A stretch of DNA of 64,000 bases from a virus: the IMG/VR virus record IMGVR_UViG_3300031918_000730, positions 1 to 64,000 of that record. One strand, given 5' to 3'. The notes under the pieces are model-generated. The model was not told where the DNA came from. It did no database searches and saw only the letters and a list, made by a program, of their open reading frames with translations. Both the position numbers and the translations under genes were made by a program. This document shows positions 23,596 to 40,782 of this stretch, one piece after another (positions within the stretch are counted from its first letter, which is position 1; every line of letters begins with the position of its first letter).

Positions 23596-24927
23596 ATGTC
23601 AAATACACTATACTCTAAGCATGGTTCACTCATGCGCAAGTGGGCACCAGTCATCGAGTCGACTCAGGTCGGTCGTAAGGTTGAAGGCACCCAGCAGGCG
23701 GCAGTATTGTCTGTCTGTCTTGAGAACCAGTACAAGCTGAATAAGGGCTACTTGCCAGAATCTCAGAACGTGACTTCTGATATGGCAACCTTCCAGCAGT
23801 ACGCACTACCAATCGTTCGCCGTATGCTCCCAGAGCTTTTGGCAACCAACGTGACTCAGGTCCAGCCTTTGACTGGCCCTACCGGACTTGCATATGCAAT
23901 GCGTTTTGCATACGACGACGGTAATCCATTGTATGATGGTAACGGTAACTTCATCGGAAACGAAATGGGTTACAACACCATCAAGCCTCAGTTCACTGGC
24001 CGTGGTACTTCTGCCGCTCCTTCTGCTTTCACCACTGGACAGGGCGAATTGCTCTCCAACTACTCTGAAGTAGCTGGCCAGAATACTTTGCAGAACCTCG
24101 GTTCCGCAAATGCACCAGACGGTACTCAGATTGCTCGTGGTAAGTTGGTTGTTGAGTCGAAGGCTGTCAAGGCTGGAACTCGCGCCATCAAGACTGCTTA
24201 CACTCTCGAACTCCAGCAGGATCTCGCCGCTGTTCACGGACAGGACATCGAGACTCTCATGATGGAAGGTTTGCAGTACGAACTTCAGCAGGAACTCGAC
24301 CGCGAGTTGCTCATCAGAATGCGCTCTGCCGCAATCAACACTGCACTGGGTGGAGCCGCTCCATTCACCATCGACGTGACCCCTAACGCAACCTCCGCAG
24401 GTAGCGTGCTTGCAGGTGACGGACGCTGGTCGCAGGAGAAGTTTGCAAACGTCGTGAATGCAATCATCGCCGCCGCTAACTACCTACGTCGCACCACTCG
24501 CCTTGGTCCGGGTAACTTTGCAATCGTCTCTCAGGACGTTGCAACTGCACTCCAGTCCTTGAACACTGGTGTCTTCACTGCTAACACTGCAGACGTTGAC
24601 GGTACTGTAATGGGTATCAAGATTGGAACTCTCCACGGTTCCAAGATCGACATCTACGTCGATACCTTCGCAAGCAACAGCTACGCGCTCGTTGGTTACA
24701 AGGGTCAGAAGCCGGGACACGCTGGTATCATCTATCTTCCTTACATTCCTCTGGTCGTCCAGAAGACTGTCGGTTCCGAAGATGCATCGCCTCGTATCAT
24801 CCTCAAGACTCGTTACGCAATCCTTGACAACTTGTTCGGTTCGGGCTTGTTCTACCGTGAGATTCGTTTCACTGGTCTGAACGGTTACTTCGGTAACGTG
24901 TTCGAGAACATCACCAACTTGTACTAA
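23596..24927 (+). CDS. gp23: Major capsid protein (gp23-like)
   Basis: 443 residues with HK97-type capsid features of the T4 family. The N-arm is followed by QQYALPIVRRMLPELLATN and VQPLTGPTGLAYAMRF, the counterparts of the T4 RRAIPNL and VQPM-TGPTGQ blocks. The C-terminal half has GRWSQEKF, VSQDVATALQSL, IYVDTFASNSY and GLNGYFGNVF. It is shorter than T4 gp23 (521), probably lacking the inserted domain. The N-terminal 20-30 residues likely carry the gp21 cleavage site. Codons are richer in C/G third bases than neighbours, consistent with very high expression. Flanked by terminators on both sides with its own late promoter. Confidence 0.95.
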   Translation: MSNTLYSKHGSLMRKWAPVIESTQVGRKVEGTQQAAVLSVCLENQYKLNKGYLPESQNVTSDMATFQQYALPIVRRMLPELLATNVTQVQPLTGPTGLAYAMRFAYDDGNPLYDGNGNFIGNEMGYNTIKPQFTGRGTSAAPSAFTTGQGELLSNYSEVAGQNTLQNLGSANAPDGTQIARGKLVVESKAVKAGTRAIKTAYTLELQQDLAAVHGQDIETLMMEGLQYELQQELDRELLIRMRSAAINTALGGAAPFTIDVTPNATSAGSVLAGDGRWSQEKFANVVNAIIAAANYLRRTTRLGPGNFAIVSQDVATALQSLNTGVFTANTADVDGTVMGIKIGTLHGSKIDIYVDTFASNSYALVGYKGQKPGHAGIIYLPYIPLVVQKTVGSEDASPRIILKTRYAILDNLFGSGLFYREIRFTGLNGYFGNVFENITNLY

Positions 24928-25033: not shown

Positions 25034-25375
25034 ATGATCGACATTCATACTGGAATCTGTGCTGAAGACGCAATCATTCTGAAGACTCGCAGACTCAACG
25101 CCGCACTTCTGAACGACGAGCACTTCGAAGCGTTCTACATTGGATACTACGACCGAATCAACGAAGAACTGGATGATCGCAAGTATAATAAGGTCGACTC
25201 GGTAAATACCATCCTCGAATTTTTCTATCACATCGGATACAGGTTTTCCGATAATGAAATCTACCTTTCCGGACTGGTACGAAAAAGCCTTCCGGGGTTG
25301 GAAGGCTTCAAGAAGTCGATCATTACCTATCTTGATCGAATGAATATCGTAGAGTATTACGAACGGGAGAAGTAA
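25034..25375 (+). CDS. Small protein, unknown, likely early
   Basis: 113 residues, charged, mixed helical, no recognised motif. Excellent ribosome site (AAAGGGGGTG) and a host-like promoter instead of a late box suggest early or middle expression, unlike the capsid gene before it. Its 3' end overlaps the convergent late gene by 19 nt and carries a terminator for that gene. Function unknown; small early phage proteins of this type often bind host factors, but nothing here shows it. Confidence 0.65.
   Translation: MIDIHTGICAEDAIILKTRRLNAALLNDEHFEAFYIGYYDRINEELDDRKYNKVDSVNTILEFFYHIGYRFSDNEIYLSGLVRKSLPGLEGFKKSIITYLDRMNIVEYYEREK
25282..25308 (-). terminator. Minus-strand terminator inside the convergent gene
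   Basis: On the minus strand AAGCCTTCC-(6 nt)-GGAAGGCTT followed by TTTC. It lies downstream of the 25357-26166 gene and within the coding region of the opposing gene. Confidence 0.65.
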
Positions 25376-26166
25376 GAAAGGGATTCGGCGAAAGCCTCCA
25401 TGAACACTCTCTCAGATTCTAACATATGATTAGTCTGGTGATTCACGAATACGTCACTAGGCTTATCCTTTTCACTAAACTTAGGTACGTTAGAATTCAA
25501 AGCCTGAATTTCTCCGCGACTCTTGTTTAGATTATCCGCAATGGTATCGAGAATTTCGATCAATCCATCGTCGCTACCCAAAAGAACATCCTTGTAACCC
25601 TTTAGAGTTGCCTGATATGGGAACTCTGGATTATAGAACAATTCAATAGCATCCTTCAGGTGAGTTACTTCCTGCTTAAACGCTTCAATAGGCGACGAAG
25701 TACTCTTCTCAGATACGCCAACTATGATTTCCTTGATGAATGTGGCTAATCGATGGCCGGGATTCTTCTTAGCCTTGGCGAGTGCATTCTTCAAAATTCC
25801 ATCGGTTGATGGATTTGATAGGAACTTATACTTGGAATACAAAGACGCAATATGCTGTTTGGCATTTGGGTCATTTTCTGCTTTGTATTTCTCCATCAAG
25901 TCTTGCCTGATCCTAGTGATCTTATCCTCGAAGGTAGATAGTGCGTTGAACCTTACTGGGTCTGCACTATTTTCCTTCTCCATAGCCATGAGGGTCTTGT
26001 CTGCAATTCTACCTAGAGTGTTCGCGACTAATGCGGAAGACTCTAGGAAAGTCCTATTACCTACACATTCAGCTAGGAACTTAGGATAGCCTAGCTTCAT
26101 CTTAGGGGTTGCAGATTCGAATATTGCCTTTGGCATCATCTCATCGAGTGTAAAAGTAGTTCTCAT
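25357..26166 (-). CDS. Late protein, unknown
   Basis: 269 residues, helical, with no recognised motif. The N-terminus (TLDEMMPKAIFESATPKMKL) and C-terminus (MEAFAESLSYFSRS) are short amphipathic helices. It carries an exact TATAAATA late box with a GAGG ribosome site, so it is made late and is likely a virion or assembly protein. It lies between the capsid gene and the capsid-like paralogue. A head-associated role (core, internal or vertex protein) is inference from neighbours. Confidence 0.65.
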   Translation of the reverse strand: MRTTFTLDEMMPKAIFESATPKMKLGYPKFLAECVGNRTFLESSALVANTLGRIADKTLMAMEKENSADPVRFNALSTFEDKITRIRQDLMEKYKAENDPNAKQHIASLYSKYKFLSNPSTDGILKNALAKAKKNPGHRLATFIKEIIVGVSEKSTSSPIEAFKQEVTHLKDAIELFYNPEFPYQATLKGYKDVLLGSDDGLIEILDTIADNLNKSRGEIQALNSNVPKFSEKDKPSDVFVNHQTNHMLESERVFMEAFAESLSYFSRS

Positions 26167-26182
26167 TTATTAACCTCTTCGA

Positions 26183-26190
26183 TATTTATA
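26183..26190 (-). promoter_or_regulatory. Late promoter box TATAAATA (exact)
   Basis: TATAAATA on the minus strand, 16 nt from the ATG at 26166, with GAGG between them. Confidence 0.75.
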
Positions 26191-26212: not shown

Positions 26213-26773
26213 TTAGACAGGAATACTGGGGAACGCATTTCCGAAGTAGGTGTTGAGTCCCTTATAGACATTCTTGATCACCAATAGTTCGGACGGCACA
26301 ATTAGATTAGGGAACTCGTCTAGTATGCTGATGTTATCAACATCGCTACTGTCAGTTACAAATACACATGAATACGATTCAGTTGCGAACATATCAACAT
26401 ATACAGTTACGAATTTATTCAATACTGCAATAGCGTCAGCTTCTTCGTCATATGAACCTGTAATCACGTCAATCATGAACTCACGATCCGAATCATCTCC
26501 ATTACAACTGATTGACTGTAAGGCAGTCGCAACATCTGGAGAGACTAATACAGAAACGAACATTCTATTCTTGCAATCACGAACAACCGAAGCCGCAGTT
26601 ACTATCTGAGTGAATATCGTCTTAAATTTCTCCTGCGACCATCTTCCCATAAATGCTTCTCCGGGAGTCACATCGAGGATTTCAGGCTCACCTGCGAATG
26701 AATTTACGATACGTCCTAGTTCGAGAACTGCGGTAGTGTGTAGATCTAGGTTTTTTTCTTTTGTAGTTGTCAT
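26213..26773 (-). CDS. Half-length paralogue of the major capsid protein (C-terminal part only)
   Basis: 186 residues that align with the C-terminal half of the capsid protein at 23596. Both share DVTP, then GRWSQEKF (identical), then VSxDVATALQS, then VYVDxFAxxSY against IYVDTFASNSY, and finally GLNxYFGNxF near the end. The N-terminal capsid half and the segment around PRIILKTRYAILDNLF are missing, so it cannot form a normal hexamer subunit. It is on the opposite strand and is driven by an extended -10 promoter rather than a late box, so it is predicted to appear before the capsid protein. T4 gp24 is a full-length paralogue and is not equivalent. Possible roles: capsid regulator, vertex/decoration protein, or interference with other phages' capsids. 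Confidence 0.85.
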   Translation of the reverse strand: MTTTKEKNLDLHTTAVLELGRIVNSFAGEPEILDVTPGEAFMGRWSQEKFKTIFTQIVTAASVVRDCKNRMFVSVLVSPDVATALQSISCNGDDSDREFMIDVITGSYDEEADAIAVLNKFVTVYVDMFATESYSCVFVTDSSDVDNISILDEFPNLIVPSELLVIKNVYKGLNTYFGNAFPSIPV

Positions 26774-26779
26774 GTATAT

Positions 26780-26788
26780 ATTGTAGCA
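26780..26788 (-). promoter_or_regulatory. Extended -10 promoter TGCTACAAT, leaderless
   Basis: TGCTACAAT on the minus strand ends 6 nt (ATATAC) before the ATG at 26773. Confidence 0.7.
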
Positions 26789-26792
26789 GTCT

Positions 26793-26800
26793 ACTAAATA
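26793..26800 (+). promoter_or_regulatory. Late promoter box ACTAAATA, leaderless
   Basis: ACTAAATA ends 5 nt (TTGGA) before the ATG at 26806; 4 nt separate it from the opposing early box. Confidence 0.65.
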
Positions 26801-26805
26801 TTGGA

Positions 26806-27561
26806 ATGTTCATTTCAAGAGATCAGGCTAAGGAATTAATTTTGTTGGAGTTGGGCGCTCCGATGGTGGATATTAATCTGAAGCTACTTCCAGATGCAAT
26901 TAGCCCAATGAATCATCTAGACAAGGCTATCAATGAGACACTCGACCTATTCTTCAGATATAATACTGACGAGTCAGTGTATCAGACTTGGATAGTAATA
27001 CCTGCAGTCCCAAATCAGTCGATATATAAGGTACCTCAGAACATTGAAGGTGTCGTGGAAATGTGGCCTTCTACTGGAGGTATTCTACAATCACCGTTTA
27101 TGATGGTCGACACTAGTTCAATGGAAACACTGATCTCACTGAACGCCAACTTTAACGAGTGGGACATTGTATCATATACTGCATCTAGACTGTTCCTTGC
27201 CGAAGTAAACAAGGCAGTAGGTGAACAATTCTACCCTAAGCTAATCGTTAATGCGCAAGGTGAAAAGGAACTTCATATCTTCCCTCCACCTCGCAACACT
27301 GGATTCCCTAGGGCAATAGTCGGTAGGGCATATCGAAGAGCAGAATTAGGTAGCGTATACGGCCACCCATTCTTCGTGAAGATCGCATCCGGTCTTCTGA
27401 TGCAGATTTGGGGTCGTTCGTTGGGTAAGTTTAGTAGGACTATGCCCGGAGGTGGAACTGTAAATGCATCTGACATCAAGAATGACGGTAAGGAACTATT
27501 CGATACTTGGTTCACAATGCTAAGGAACGAGTCGGCACCTCCCCTAGGGGCGGCGTACTAA
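26806..27561 (+). CDS. Neck protein (gp13-like)
   Basis: 251 residues from ATG 26806; the longer frame from 26767 would run through the promoters and is rejected. The N-terminus (RDQAKELILLELGAPMVDIN, then LDKAINETLDLFFRY) matches the pattern of T4-type neck proteins, in which a helix with LGxPVxxI precedes a helix of paired aromatics. These proteins form the head-tail connector ring that seals packaged DNA and accepts the tail. Late leaderless promoter. It is convergent with the 120-aa gene, overlapping it by 4 nt. Confidence 0.6.
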   Translation: MFISRDQAKELILLELGAPMVDINLKLLPDAISPMNHLDKAINETLDLFFRYNTDESVYQTWIVIPAVPNQSIYKVPQNIEGVVEMWPSTGGILQSPFMMVDTSSMETLISLNANFNEWDIVSYTASRLFLAEVNKAVGEQFYPKLIVNAQGEKELHIFPPPRNTGFPRAIVGRAYRRAELGSVYGHPFFVKIASGLLMQIWGRSLGKFSRTMPGGGTVNASDIKNDGKELFDTWFTMLRNESAPPLGAAY

Positions 27562-27920: not shown

Positions 27921-29147
27921 TTAAAACTCCAAATTAGAATGTGATTCCCAGCCAGTGTCGATAGCATATGCGTCGAGTAGAGTCTTATTCTTACCTAGAA
28001 CCTTCTTCAGGTTTGCAATTGCCTTCTTGCGAATCCTGTCATATTCATTTGGTTGAATATTCAACTCAGTGATGATTTCTTCCTTACTCTTAATCTCACT
28101 ACGGGGGTTTATCCCGAAGTGATACTTCAAGTAATACTGTTCGGCGTCATTGTTCACAGATTCAACGTAATTACGGATCAACGATCTCAGGTCTTTGATT
28201 GTGACGTTGTCGGACTCGTCGATGATGTAATTGTCGATGAGGTTATCTTCGAAGGAGGCACCTACCGATTGCTGGTTCTTATGTTCGTGGAACCTAGCGT
28301 CAGTGTCGATCTGATAGTAAGCGAAGGACACATCAAGATTAGAAAGGCTAGATACCTTCTTCTTCATATGAACAATTATCTCTTCTTCCATCGGATCTCT
28401 ATTGAGCCTATGTCGTAGTTCCTTGCGGATTTTCTCGACTTCCTTAGCCTGCTCCCGGACATTGACAGGTATTCTGATTAGTGAATCCTTGTCGGCGATA
28501 GCCCTATTGATAGACGCTTTGATCCATTGAGATGCGTAGGTGCTGAATTTGATACCTAGGCTACAATTGAAGAGTTCGATTGCCCTGCGAAGACCTAGAG
28601 TGCCCTCGGAGAACAAGTCTTTCACTGTCAAATCTACAGTGTTCTTATACGACGACAATATTCGGAGTATGATTTTCACGTTCGACAGGTATATCTTGTC
28701 AATATGGTACTGCATGTCCTTCTGCATGACGTTGAAAATCATGTTCGGGGTTCCATTTGACTCGTATGCGGTCAGGACTTCACGGTAGATGTCGTATGAT
28801 ACATTGAAGTTGTCGGAGTATTCAATGATCTGCTCCCTTGTCATGTCAGCGATAGATGAAACAAACGACAAAGTCATCTTAGAGTTGTAGTCGTAGTCCT
28901 CTGCGCAGACAAAGGTGTCTGTCATGAATGCTTCATGTGCATTGCCAGTGGCAATGAGGTGCGTTACCACTTGCAGGAACTTGGCGAATGCAGTGTCATC
29001 TGCGAGACAGCTACGGAAGATCCTGTTCTTGGTCGCGTTGATATTGGAAAATACGAAAAATTCCTGCTCCTTGAGCAGAATTGGATTTCTAGCGACAGTG
29101 TTTTCCAACGAACTCTTGAGTTCGTTGAACTCTACTAGGAAGGCCAT
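27921..29147 (-). CDS. Sigma70-family RNA polymerase sigma factor
   Basis: 408 residues. Region 2 lies near 140-225 and contains DLFSEGTLGLRRAIELF, KFSTYASQWIKASINRAI and IRIPVNV, very close to bacterial primary sigma regions 2.2-2.4. Region 3 (226-290) has the RLNRDPMEEEI motif. Region 4 lies near 325-392 (KSKEEIITELNIQPNEYDRIRKKAIANLK). The first 135 residues match nothing I know. T4 encodes no such factor; its late sigma gp55 is small and lacks regions 3 and 4. A GGAG site precedes the ATG. It is second in an operon driven by an extended -10 promoter, so it is probably made early and could redirect host polymerase to middle promoters. Confidence 0.9.
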   Translation of the reverse strand: MAFLVEFNELKSSLENTVARNPILLKEQEFFVFSNINATKNRIFRSCLADDTAFAKFLQVVTHLIATGNAHEAFMTDTFVCAEDYDYNSKMTLSFVSSIADMTREQIIEYSDNFNVSYDIYREVLTAYESNGTPNMIFNVMQKDMQYHIDKIYLSNVKIILRILSSYKNTVDLTVKDLFSEGTLGLRRAIELFNCSLGIKFSTYASQWIKASINRAIADKDSLIRIPVNVREQAKEVEKIRKELRHRLNRDPMEEEIIVHMKKKVSSLSNLDVSFAYYQIDTDARFHEHKNQQSVGASFEDNLIDNYIIDESDNVTIKDLRSLIRNYVESVNNDAEQYYLKYHFGINPRSEIKSKEEIITELNIQPNEYDRIRKKAIANLKKVLGKNKTLLDAYAIDTGWESHSNLEF

Positions 29148-29176: not shown

Positions 29177-29767
29177 TCAAAATACCTTCGGGAAAATAGC
29201 CTCCATCAACTTGGTCAGGCCACCGAAGCGCACGCTCTCCGACTTATTCCTAAAGTAATTTAAGGTCTGCGCATCTGTCAACCCCATAATGAAAGAAGTG
29301 TCGATGTATAGCGACACCACCTCAGAAATTCGCTTCTCGAAACTCAAGTCGTCGGAGTCGAGAGAGCTAGGGTTGTCGAAGCGTTCAGATATTACCTGTA
29401 GGAATCTGGTTGTCGAGTTAATGATCGCTTCTTGAGATTCGTCATTTAGAGTGTTCACTTCATCTACGTCGACGAGTTCGACCTCAATGTCGTTGTCTTT
29501 ACTGTATTTCACAAATACGTCTAAGAAATACGAGCAACCATTAAGATATGCTTCAATCTGCGCCCCGAAGATTTCACCGTAGATCTTCTGGGCTTTGTCG
29601 TTCTTATCGTCGTCTTCTACGAATGAACTACATTCTCCGATGATGTACTCTGAGAGCTTCTCCTTCACTTCCTGAAAATCCACCCCGACCTGAAGCATCG
29701 CGATTGAGATCTTGTTGGATGAATCTGCGTACTCTTCTTCTGTCAGTGGATTATCTTCATTGCTCAT
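29177..29767 (-). CDS. Early protein upstream of the sigma factor, unknown
   Basis: 196 residues from ATG 29767 (MSNEDNPLTEEEYADS). The extended frame to 29887 would cross the promoter and is rejected. Acidic and helical, with segments SFVEDDDKND and VELVDVDEVN; no known motif. It is the first gene of the sigma operon, starting 7 nt after an extended -10 box, and ends 29 nt before the sigma start. A sigma regulator or RNA polymerase-binding protein would fit the context but is not shown by sequence. Confidence 0.65.
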   Translation of the reverse strand: MSNEDNPLTEEEYADSSNKISIAMLQVGVDFQEVKEKLSEYIIGECSSFVEDDDKNDKAQKIYGEIFGAQIEAYLNGCSYFLDVFVKYSKDNDIEVELVDVDEVNTLNDESQEAIINSTTRFLQVISERFDNPSSLDSDDLSFEKRISEVVSLYIDTSFIMGLTDAQTLNYFRNKSESVRFGGLTKLMEAIFPKVF

Positions 29768-29774
29768 ATTTTTG

Positions 29775-29783
29775 ATTGTAGCA
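29775..29783 (-). promoter_or_regulatory. Extended -10 promoter TGCTACAAT of the sigma operon, leaderless
   Basis: TGCTACAAT on the minus strand ends 7 nt (CAAAAAT) before the ATG at 29767. Confidence 0.7.
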
Positions 29784-29800
29784 CTCAATCTTAAGTTTCG

Positions 29801-29808
29801 AATAAATA
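29801..29808 (+). promoter_or_regulatory. Late promoter box AATAAATA, leaderless GTG start
   Basis: AATAAATA ends 5 nt (TCAAA) before GTG 29814. It is divergent from the early sigma-operon promoter 17 nt away. Confidence 0.6.
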
Positions 29809-29813
29809 TCAAA

Positions 29814-30428
29814 GTGATTGATCTATTAGATGTGGTGCTCGTGAAGTACACTGGCCTCAGCGGTCGCGCCACTGAAGTAAACAGCATATCCTACAAGACT
29901 GTGGATTCCGCCACATACCTTGACAGTATAGATTCGATCAACTATGCTGTTAGATCACCATATGGTACAAGACCAAAAAATCTATCATACGAAAACTGGA
30001 TAAAATTCAAGCTAAGGGTTAATCGGAAGTATAGGAAATGCCTCAAAGGCACTGCTATGCAACTTCCATGTGTTGACCTCGGATGCGACGACATGCAAGT
30101 GTATACTAAGATCAAGAACGTGAAACTATGGATTAAGTTCCAATGTTTCGTAGACTATGAAGTCAAGTATGCGTTCGCTAAGGAATATACTGCACCAGTC
30201 AGAACAGATAGCTCAATTGCAGTGAATAACATTAGGGCAATTCAGAACCCAAAATACAACAGTGAATATGTAGTCGAGATCCCAATTGGAAATCAAGACG
30301 GTGAAATGTTACTAGGTGAACTAGACTTGTATGAGAGTGACTTTTTCGTCTCGCAATTAATTGCGTATAAGGGATGTCAGTTTCAGAATAGCATTATGAA
30401 GGTCTGCATCCACTACGACTTAGCTTAA
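29814..30428 (+). CDS. Late structural or tail-completion-type protein, unknown
   Basis: 204 residues from GTG 29814, chosen because the late box ends exactly 5 nt upstream as at other late genes. The N-terminus MIDLLDVVLVKYTGLSGRATEVNS is strand-rich. The body is rich in basic and aromatic residues (ENWIKFKLRVNRKYRKCLKG), with several Cys (CVDLGCDDM). Convergent with the 415-aa late gene, overlapping it by 4 nt. A neck or tail-terminator role (gp14/gp15/gp3 type) would suit the position near the gp13-like gene, but the sequence does not prove it. Confidence 0.6.
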   Translation: MIDLLDVVLVKYTGLSGRATEVNSISYKTVDSATYLDSIDSINYAVRSPYGTRPKNLSYENWIKFKLRVNRKYRKCLKGTAMQLPCVDLGCDDMQVYTKIKNVKLWIKFQCFVDYEVKYAFAKEYTAPVRTDSSIAVNNIRAIQNPKYNSEYVVEIPIGNQDGEMLLGELDLYESDFFVSQLIAYKGCQFQNSIMKVCIHYDLA

Positions 30429-39855: not shown

Positions 39856-40782
39856 ATGATTAAGAACGAATTTGATGAAAATCCAGACGCATCACTTATT
39901 GATGAGGATTTGCTTTTTGAAGAAACACTGCGACGTAAGGTTGAAGCTAAAGCAAAAGGTCGTAAGGAGAAGAAGGAAGCCAATCCTAGATACTATCTCG
40001 ACCCAGATGAATTGGAGTTGAATCTTAGAGGGCATGTGATCATGAGGGCAATTAACCCAGAGCATGTCATGAGTCGTAAGTTAGGAGATAACTTGATGAT
40101 CCTCGTGGCTGAATATGCAGAGGGTGGTCAATTCAGATCATACTATAATGGATGGAAAGAGGAAATGAAGTCTAGGGCACATGAGCACATTTGTAGATAC
40201 GCTCATGGCTACAAGATCAATTATGTCAAGACTCTAGAGTTCTTCATTCGCTGGCTTTTCCGGAAGAAGACATATGCCCTGCAGGCTTGGCTTGCTGAAC
40301 GAGGTATCTCATATGCCAAGTTCTACCTGAGCCTACTTGAGGTGAAAATAAAAACACCGAACGGTAAAGAAAAGACCAAGATGGGAAGAAAGATCTTCGA
40401 TCATGACTTCCATAAGCTGAACAATCCAGATGTACTTGCTGATCTTATTGATGATTCACTGAAAGGTAACGTACCTGTAGGTGTGGTATTCAATGAAGAA
40501 ACCTTCAAGGATGAGATTTTCGCTAGATGGCCAGAGAGTCTACAGAAGGACTTCAATGAGCAGGTGCGTAGAAACCCGTTCAATTACCTGACGAAGTATG
40601 CGTACAATGCATTCATCGCGGTTATCAAGGAAGAAAAAGAGATCAGTGAGAAGAGTAGAAGTTTCGAAGAGGGCATGAAATATAATCCTGATTCTTTCGA
40701 CGAAGACAATCATGGTGGTGAGGACAGGTATACTCAACTCGATGAGAATCGAATAGATTGGGACATGAAGATGACTGACTGA
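39856..40782 (+). CDS. gp55: Late sigma factor gp55-like with a long internal insertion
   Basis: 308 residues; T4 gp55 is 185. Two blocks match T4 gp55. Residues 78-120 (GDNLMILVAEYAEGG, then YNGWKEEMKSRAHEHICRY) correspond to the T4 segment with AIMLIAEG and SWKQEMIADGIE. Residues 240-270 (NPFNYLTKYAYNAFIAVIKE) correspond to [20 protein letters not shown]. Between them lie about 118 residues where T4 has around ten, containing a basic helix pair and KIKTPNGKEKTKMGRK. gp55 directs RNA polymerase to late TATAAATA-type promoters. AGAGG precedes the ATG. It lies between gp46 and gp47, a region that also neighbours gp55 in T4. Confidence 0.82.
   Translation: MIKNEFDENPDASLIDEDLLFEETLRRKVEAKAKGRKEKKEANPRYYLDPDELELNLRGHVIMRAINPEHVMSRKLGDNLMILVAEYAEGGQFRSYYNGWKEEMKSRAHEHICRYAHGYKINYVKTLEFFIRWLFRKKTYALQAWLAERGISYAKFYLSLLEVKIKTPNGKEKTKMGRKIFDHDFHKLNNPDVLADLIDDSLKGNVPVGVVFNEETFKDEIFARWPESLQKDFNEQVRRNPFNYLTKYAYNAFIAVIKEEKEISEKSRSFEEGMKYNPDSFDEDNHGGEDRYTQLDENRIDWDMKMTD

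Follow-up and report, generated by a model that had tools for sequence, protein, structure and literature searches.

A gp23 paralogue lacking the N-terminal half of the capsid protein and carrying an early-type promoter motif in a virus with T4-type genes

Capsid paralogues and capsid-derived inhibitors

The extra phage capsid proteins known so far, gp24 of T4 and the coat-protein homologue of SaPIbov5, are shell builders. T4 gp24 is a full-length protein that occupies vertices (PMC9958956). Like the gene described here, it is a paralogue of gp23 encoded within the same phage. The present product, termed the half-capsid, is missing the N-terminal half as well as an internal segment of the capsid protein and is encoded behind an early-type promoter. 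The distinction from a full-length vertex paralogue drawn in an earlier note on this DNA holds, the half-capsid being only 186 residues long.

The SaPIbov5 coat-protein homologue makes up the pentamers in small capsids (PMC10945586). It resembles the half-capsid as an extra capsid homologue, one that manipulates the phage shell, but it is satellite-encoded and shell-building. TcaP of PLE and Sid of P4 redirect or inhibit the capsid assembly of a competitor phage, a likeness proposed for the half-capsid as well, but both are external scaffolds whereas the half-capsid is a capsid homologue. TcaP has no capsid homology and PLE encodes no capsid homologue (PMC10945586). The comparison with satellite-encoded capsid mimics made in the earlier note is therefore loose.

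Ty1 p22/p18 resembles the half-capsid in corresponding to the C-terminal half of the capsid protein of its own element and in having a transcript of its own. Its dominant-negative activity has been demonstrated (PMC4599808, PMC8458377), whereas a like activity of the half-capsid is putative. Unlike the half-capsid, p22/p18 is a retrotransposon Gag product with an all-helical, unrelated fold, and its transcript is internal to the same gene.

Moron cassettes are single genes with their own promoter between structural genes. The half-capsid gene shares with them an early-type promoter of its own, a position between two late genes and presence in some close relatives but not in others; unlike them, it arose from the capsid gene of the phage itself. 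A limited search of open-licence papers found no phage-encoded truncated capsid paralogue.

Identity and anatomy of the half-capsid

The window, the whole 64,000-nucleotide stretch analysed here, is part of a 79,874-base IMG/VR virus record whose head, tail and replication genes are of T4 type. Its features around the half-capsid gene are collected in Table 1. The half-capsid matches Pfam PF07068 (Gp23) with 33.6 bits over residues 25-146, and its ortholog in a related contig, L005, does so with 33.8 bits over residues 14-131; both exceed the gathering cut-off of 24.4 bits. It also matches the PHROG 138 major head protein (1.6e-6) and aligns with its own major capsid protein (MCP) at 30% identity over 198 columns (BLASTP, 3e-15). 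The MCP itself is matched by Pfam Gp23 (2e-73), PHROG 138 (7e-71) and T4 gp23 in the PDB (8e-31). These matches, and the presence of the sequence blocks quoted in the earlier note, bear out the identification of a truncated capsid paralogue.

Table 1. Coordinates of the half-capsid gene, its neighbours and their promoter motifs in the window
Feature	Position	Strand	Remarks
Full-length MCP, gp23-type	23596..24927	+	443 aa; source paralogue of the half-capsid
g269	25357..26166	-	downstream of the half-capsid gene, same strand, own late promoter
Late promoter TATAAATA of g269	26183..26190	-	16 nt before ATG
Half-capsid (truncated gp23 paralogue)	26213..26773	-	open ORF, 186 aa
Extended -10 element TGCTACAAT of the half-capsid gene	26780..26788	-	ends 6 nt before ATG
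Late promoter-like CTAAATA of the gp13-like gene	26794..26800	+	5 nt before ATG
gp13-like neck protein	26806..27561	+	PHROG 211 head-tail adaptor, E 1e-8; divergent neighbour

Among these blocks GRWSQEKF is present, but it does not by itself prove origin from the phage's own capsid gene, since the motif is common across gp23 proteins and its R, W and E are invariant in all 36 aligned gp23 sequences. Recent copying from the own capsid gene, which had been argued from this family-wide motif, was dropped. Origin from that gene is shown instead by the tree described below, together with the GLNxYFGNxF tail and TIDVTP.

Alignment to the MCP confirmed that the N-terminal half and an internal segment are missing, corresponding to about MCP residues 1-225 and 376-408. 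The half-capsid starts close to where the spine helix ends (equivalent to ELDRELLIRM...) and continues with TIDVTP, the GRWSQEKF helix, the VSxDVATALQS strand-helix and the YVDxFA strand. It then skips about 30 residues (~MCP 376-408, ...PYIPLVVQKTVGSEDASPRIILKTRY), a gap whose exact borders vary with the alignment, before resuming near ILD(E)F and ending in GLNTYFGNAF. On the model of T4 gp23 and HK97 (domain terms from PMC9958956; PDB alignments), it would span the spine-helix end, the second P-domain helix, the A domain and the C-tail, an assignment that at residue level is inferential. The N-arm, the E-loop and most of the P domain are absent, and with them what a functional MCP requires. 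Met42 is a possible internal start (145 aa, with an SD-like GGAG 8 nt upstream), which is absent from the L005 ortholog.

AlphaFold2 models of the window and L005 halves (pLDDT 68.6 and 67.7, pTM 0.71 and 0.64) have the same element order of helix-strand-long helix-strand-helix-strands. The best PDB match of the window model is T4 gp23 (Foldseek, E 2e-4, prob 1.00), and across the two models the best matches are T4 gp23 and P1/T4 capsids (prob 1.00, TMq 0.46). Model confidence is moderate (pLDDT 68-69), and the input alignments contain capsid sequences, so the models lean to a capsid fold. With this qualification, the covered part of the half-capsid is predicted to have an HK97-type fold, and the comparison with gp23 suggested in the earlier note gave a match rather than a different fold.

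Relatives and the locus

The same capsid lineage occurs in three further IMG/VR contigs, which may be incomplete: L003 (306 kb), L004 and L005. Their capsids are 92%, 92% and 86% identical to the window MCP, respectively; the L005 capsid is 86-88% identical to the other three, which are 92-93% alike. The gene order capsid, g113, g269(-), gp13-like(+) is common to all four. The half-capsid gene is present intact beside the gp13-like gene in one of the three relatives, L005 (12601-13164(-), 187 aa), at the same site and on the same strand, which answers the earlier note's proposal to look for it there. The two halves are 29% identical and share ILDEFP, which is absent from the capsids. L003 and L004 lack the gene cleanly, with ~40 bases at the site that carry late promoter motifs for both flanking genes. 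Because L005 is the outlier by capsid identity, the simplest history has the half-capsid in the common ancestor and lost from L003 and L004; alternatively, the gene may have been transferred between lineages.

The flanking genes differ in conservation. The gp13-like protein is 80-90% identical in the three relatives, and g269 is 43-52% identical to its counterparts there. Database comparison gave no confident function for g269, which is possibly a head or core protein; its C-terminus, FMEAFAESLxYFxR, is strictly kept in all four genomes.

Searches for further copies of the half-capsid returned none at the sensitivities used. No third copy was found in IMG/VR with the window half, the L005 half and their alignment as queries, nor any copy in GTDB genomes. 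INPHARED yielded no further half by tblastn, with capsid genes among the matches listed. Capsid and half-capsid profiles found no further half in the 306-kb relative and other records, and G001 had one capsid match only. The gp13-like protein and g269, used as bait, revealed no relatives beyond the same three. In an alignment search of IMG/VR, in which all 38 loci were checked, the other capsid matches were full-length or cut by the end of the stretch, with the exception of a 65-aa fragment in L008. A 55-aa ORF in L008 (12046-12213(+)) resembles only the capsid segment GYKxPxxxxAGIIYMPYI, which is close to the part missing in the half-capsid, and lies downstream of the contig's own capsid gene, past a transposase-like ORF.

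Origin and selection

The tree of the shared domain groups the two halves in a single clade (SH-aLRT 96, UFBoot 100) that adjoins the four own-lineage capsids (81/93), although the branches joined are long and call for caution. A tree with a duplication of its own in each phage is disfavoured (AU p 0.041). The tree does not include gp24; the nearest relatives of the halves within it are the own-clade capsids. The GLNxYFGNxF C-tail and TIDVTP occur, among the aligned capsids, in the halves and own-lineage capsids only. On these sequences, one old duplication of the gp23 gene is the best supported origin.

The halves have evolved fast, with branch lengths of 0.85-1.0 substitutions per site versus about 0.02-0.06 for the capsids. 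Of the residues identical between them, 29 of 51 use different codons, and changes between the window and L005 halves at codon positions 1, 2 and 3 number 90, 76 and 119 of 176. The open frames, synonymous turnover and codon-position pattern indicate that the halves are under coding constraint, apparently weaker than that on the capsid. Conservation between the halves is concentrated on gp23-universal residues, of which R44, W45, E48, S78, Y125, D127 and A130 are kept in both. The near-universal GxGN and GYKG loops and the Asp before GRW are lost in both. The halves show no clear match to the variable sites of their own capsid (3 versus 1, and 5 versus 4), although this test was too small to be decisive.

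Taken together, a single ancient duplication, rapid divergence, a frame that has stayed open and the synonymous turnover indicate that the gene is selected but dispensable. There is no sign of the pseudogene-like decay that the earlier note had named as a refutation, as relatives either keep the gene intact (L005) or lack it completely (L003, L004).

Promoters and expression

The half-capsid gene is preceded by an extended -10 element from which a leaderless or near-leaderless transcript would be expected. In L005 the extended -10 TGCTATAAT stands 21 nt before the ATG, with an SD sequence. Extended -10 motifs (TGnTAnnAT) lie upstream of 11 of 81 genes versus 2.2 expected, and late motifs (NTAAATA) upstream of 18 of 81 versus 0.9 expected. 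A standard sigma-70 scan (-35 plus -10) showed no enrichment, with 25 matches versus 24.9 expected, so the promoter argument is based on the extended -10 class.

The genes behind TGnTAnnAT encode UvsY, a gp55-like late sigma, a glycosyltransferase, DNA polymerase, UvsX, primase, a RuvC-like resolvase and an exonuclease; one more match, ahead of the portal gene, is probably fortuitous. Those behind NTAAATA include the tail tube, gp4-like head closure and endonuclease VII genes. The half-capsid motif is identical to one before the primase gene and one upstream of DNA polymerase, and other early-type genes likewise have the motif at -6 or -7. At the level of motifs, this supports an early-type designation for the half-capsid gene. 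The contrast with a late capsid promoter drawn in the earlier note stands on one side: the half-capsid gene has an extended -10 of the early/middle class on the opposite strand, but the late motif of the MCP gene is weak (CTAAATA 53 nt upstream), while those of the neighbours are clear. The CTAAATA of the gp13-like gene lies 5 bp from the early element of the half-capsid gene.

Both motif classes often end 5-7 nt, or ~15-24 nt, before the ATG, the shorter spacing implying putative leaderless mRNAs. A motif 5-7 nt before the ATG is seen at many gene starts of the window, e.g. 11062, 13485, 61078, 62591, 57182 and 55622, and this spacing recurs in the 306-kb relative.

Possible roles of the half-capsid

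The half-capsid is probably a working accessory protein. In the proposed history, the phage's own gp23 gene would have been duplicated and shortened to the spine-helix end, the second P-domain helix, the A-domain core and the C-tail. The shortened copy would then have been captured, in an ancestor of the window phage and L005, as a small cassette with its own early or middle promoter between two divergent late genes, and maintained by selection as an accessory gene, though a dispensable one. Its product would be unable to build shells, since it has neither the N-arm/propeptide region nor the E-loop and has lost most of the spine helix along with part of the closing beta strands. A conflict-type accessory protein fits this expected inability, the early promoter, the absence from close relatives and the fast evolution.

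It is quite possible, if somewhat short of probable, that this early HK97-fold fragment acts in trans on capsid-related targets, either the sensors with which hosts detect capsids or the assembly of rival phages, as a phage counterpart of Ty1 p22 with an unrelated fold. As the favoured single explanation, though a more tentative one, the half-capsid may be an early soluble capsid mimic, present before the capsid protein is made, that would occupy partners or interfaces of full-length gp23 and compete with it in a dominant-negative manner like p22. The loss of the universal gp23 loops would weaken capsomer docking, and the fast change of the halves (two orthologs known, window and L005) against a nearly invariant own capsid is a poor fit with faithful docking.

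The same loop loss, the very long branches and a promoter type common to replication genes would also suit an A-domain core recruited to another early job, on a host protein, nucleic acid or replication factor, with no capsid role. This is rather unlikely, as RWxxE, YVD and the lineage-specific C-tail are still present, which suggests that some capsid-like property has been kept.

The half-capsid could instead be a decoy that occupies a putative host defence sensor of capsid without activating it, before the late capsid appears. Capsid proteins set off several bacterial defences. CapRel makes contact with elements of the P and A domains (PMC9712102); Thoeris is another such system, as is Lit, which is triggered via a gp23 peptide (PMC11312562). 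The early-type promoter, fast evolution and presence or absence in close relatives suit an arms-race gene. However, the best-kept residues are the family-wide fold core, in which an epitope is indistinguishable from fold constraint, and such a decoy is considered unlikely.

A minor virion component, a cap for special positions or a regulator of the phage's own head assembly would be in keeping with a capsid-derived gene located among head genes beside the gp13-like neck gene. Such roles are markedly less plausible in view of the early-type promoter, the fast divergence and the absence of the gene from two relatives with capsids about 92% identical. A non-functional duplicate on its way out, as absence from L003 and L004 and fast divergence might suggest, is very improbable given frames of 186 and 187 codons open in two lineages at 29% identity, the synonymous turnover (29/51), the excess of third over second codon-position changes (119 versus 76 of 176) and the conserved early promoter.

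A conserved capsid fragment behind an early-type promoter, and presumably incapable of assembly, would put the HK97 fold to a distinct use. It could serve as a weapon in superinfection or competition, or as a counter-defence against capsid-triggered bacterial sensors. The presence and absence of the gene among near relatives provides a natural comparison.

Neighbouring genes

Beside the gp13-like gene lies a gene for a 408-aa sigma-70-family factor (27921-29147(-); Sigma70_r2 4e-8, PHROG 351 3e-33), which might read the extended -10 class. It is additional to the gp55-like late sigma encoded at 39856-40782. Two long ORFs with provisional start codons, 29712-30428(+) and 29177-29887(-), overlap by ~175 bases on opposite strands.
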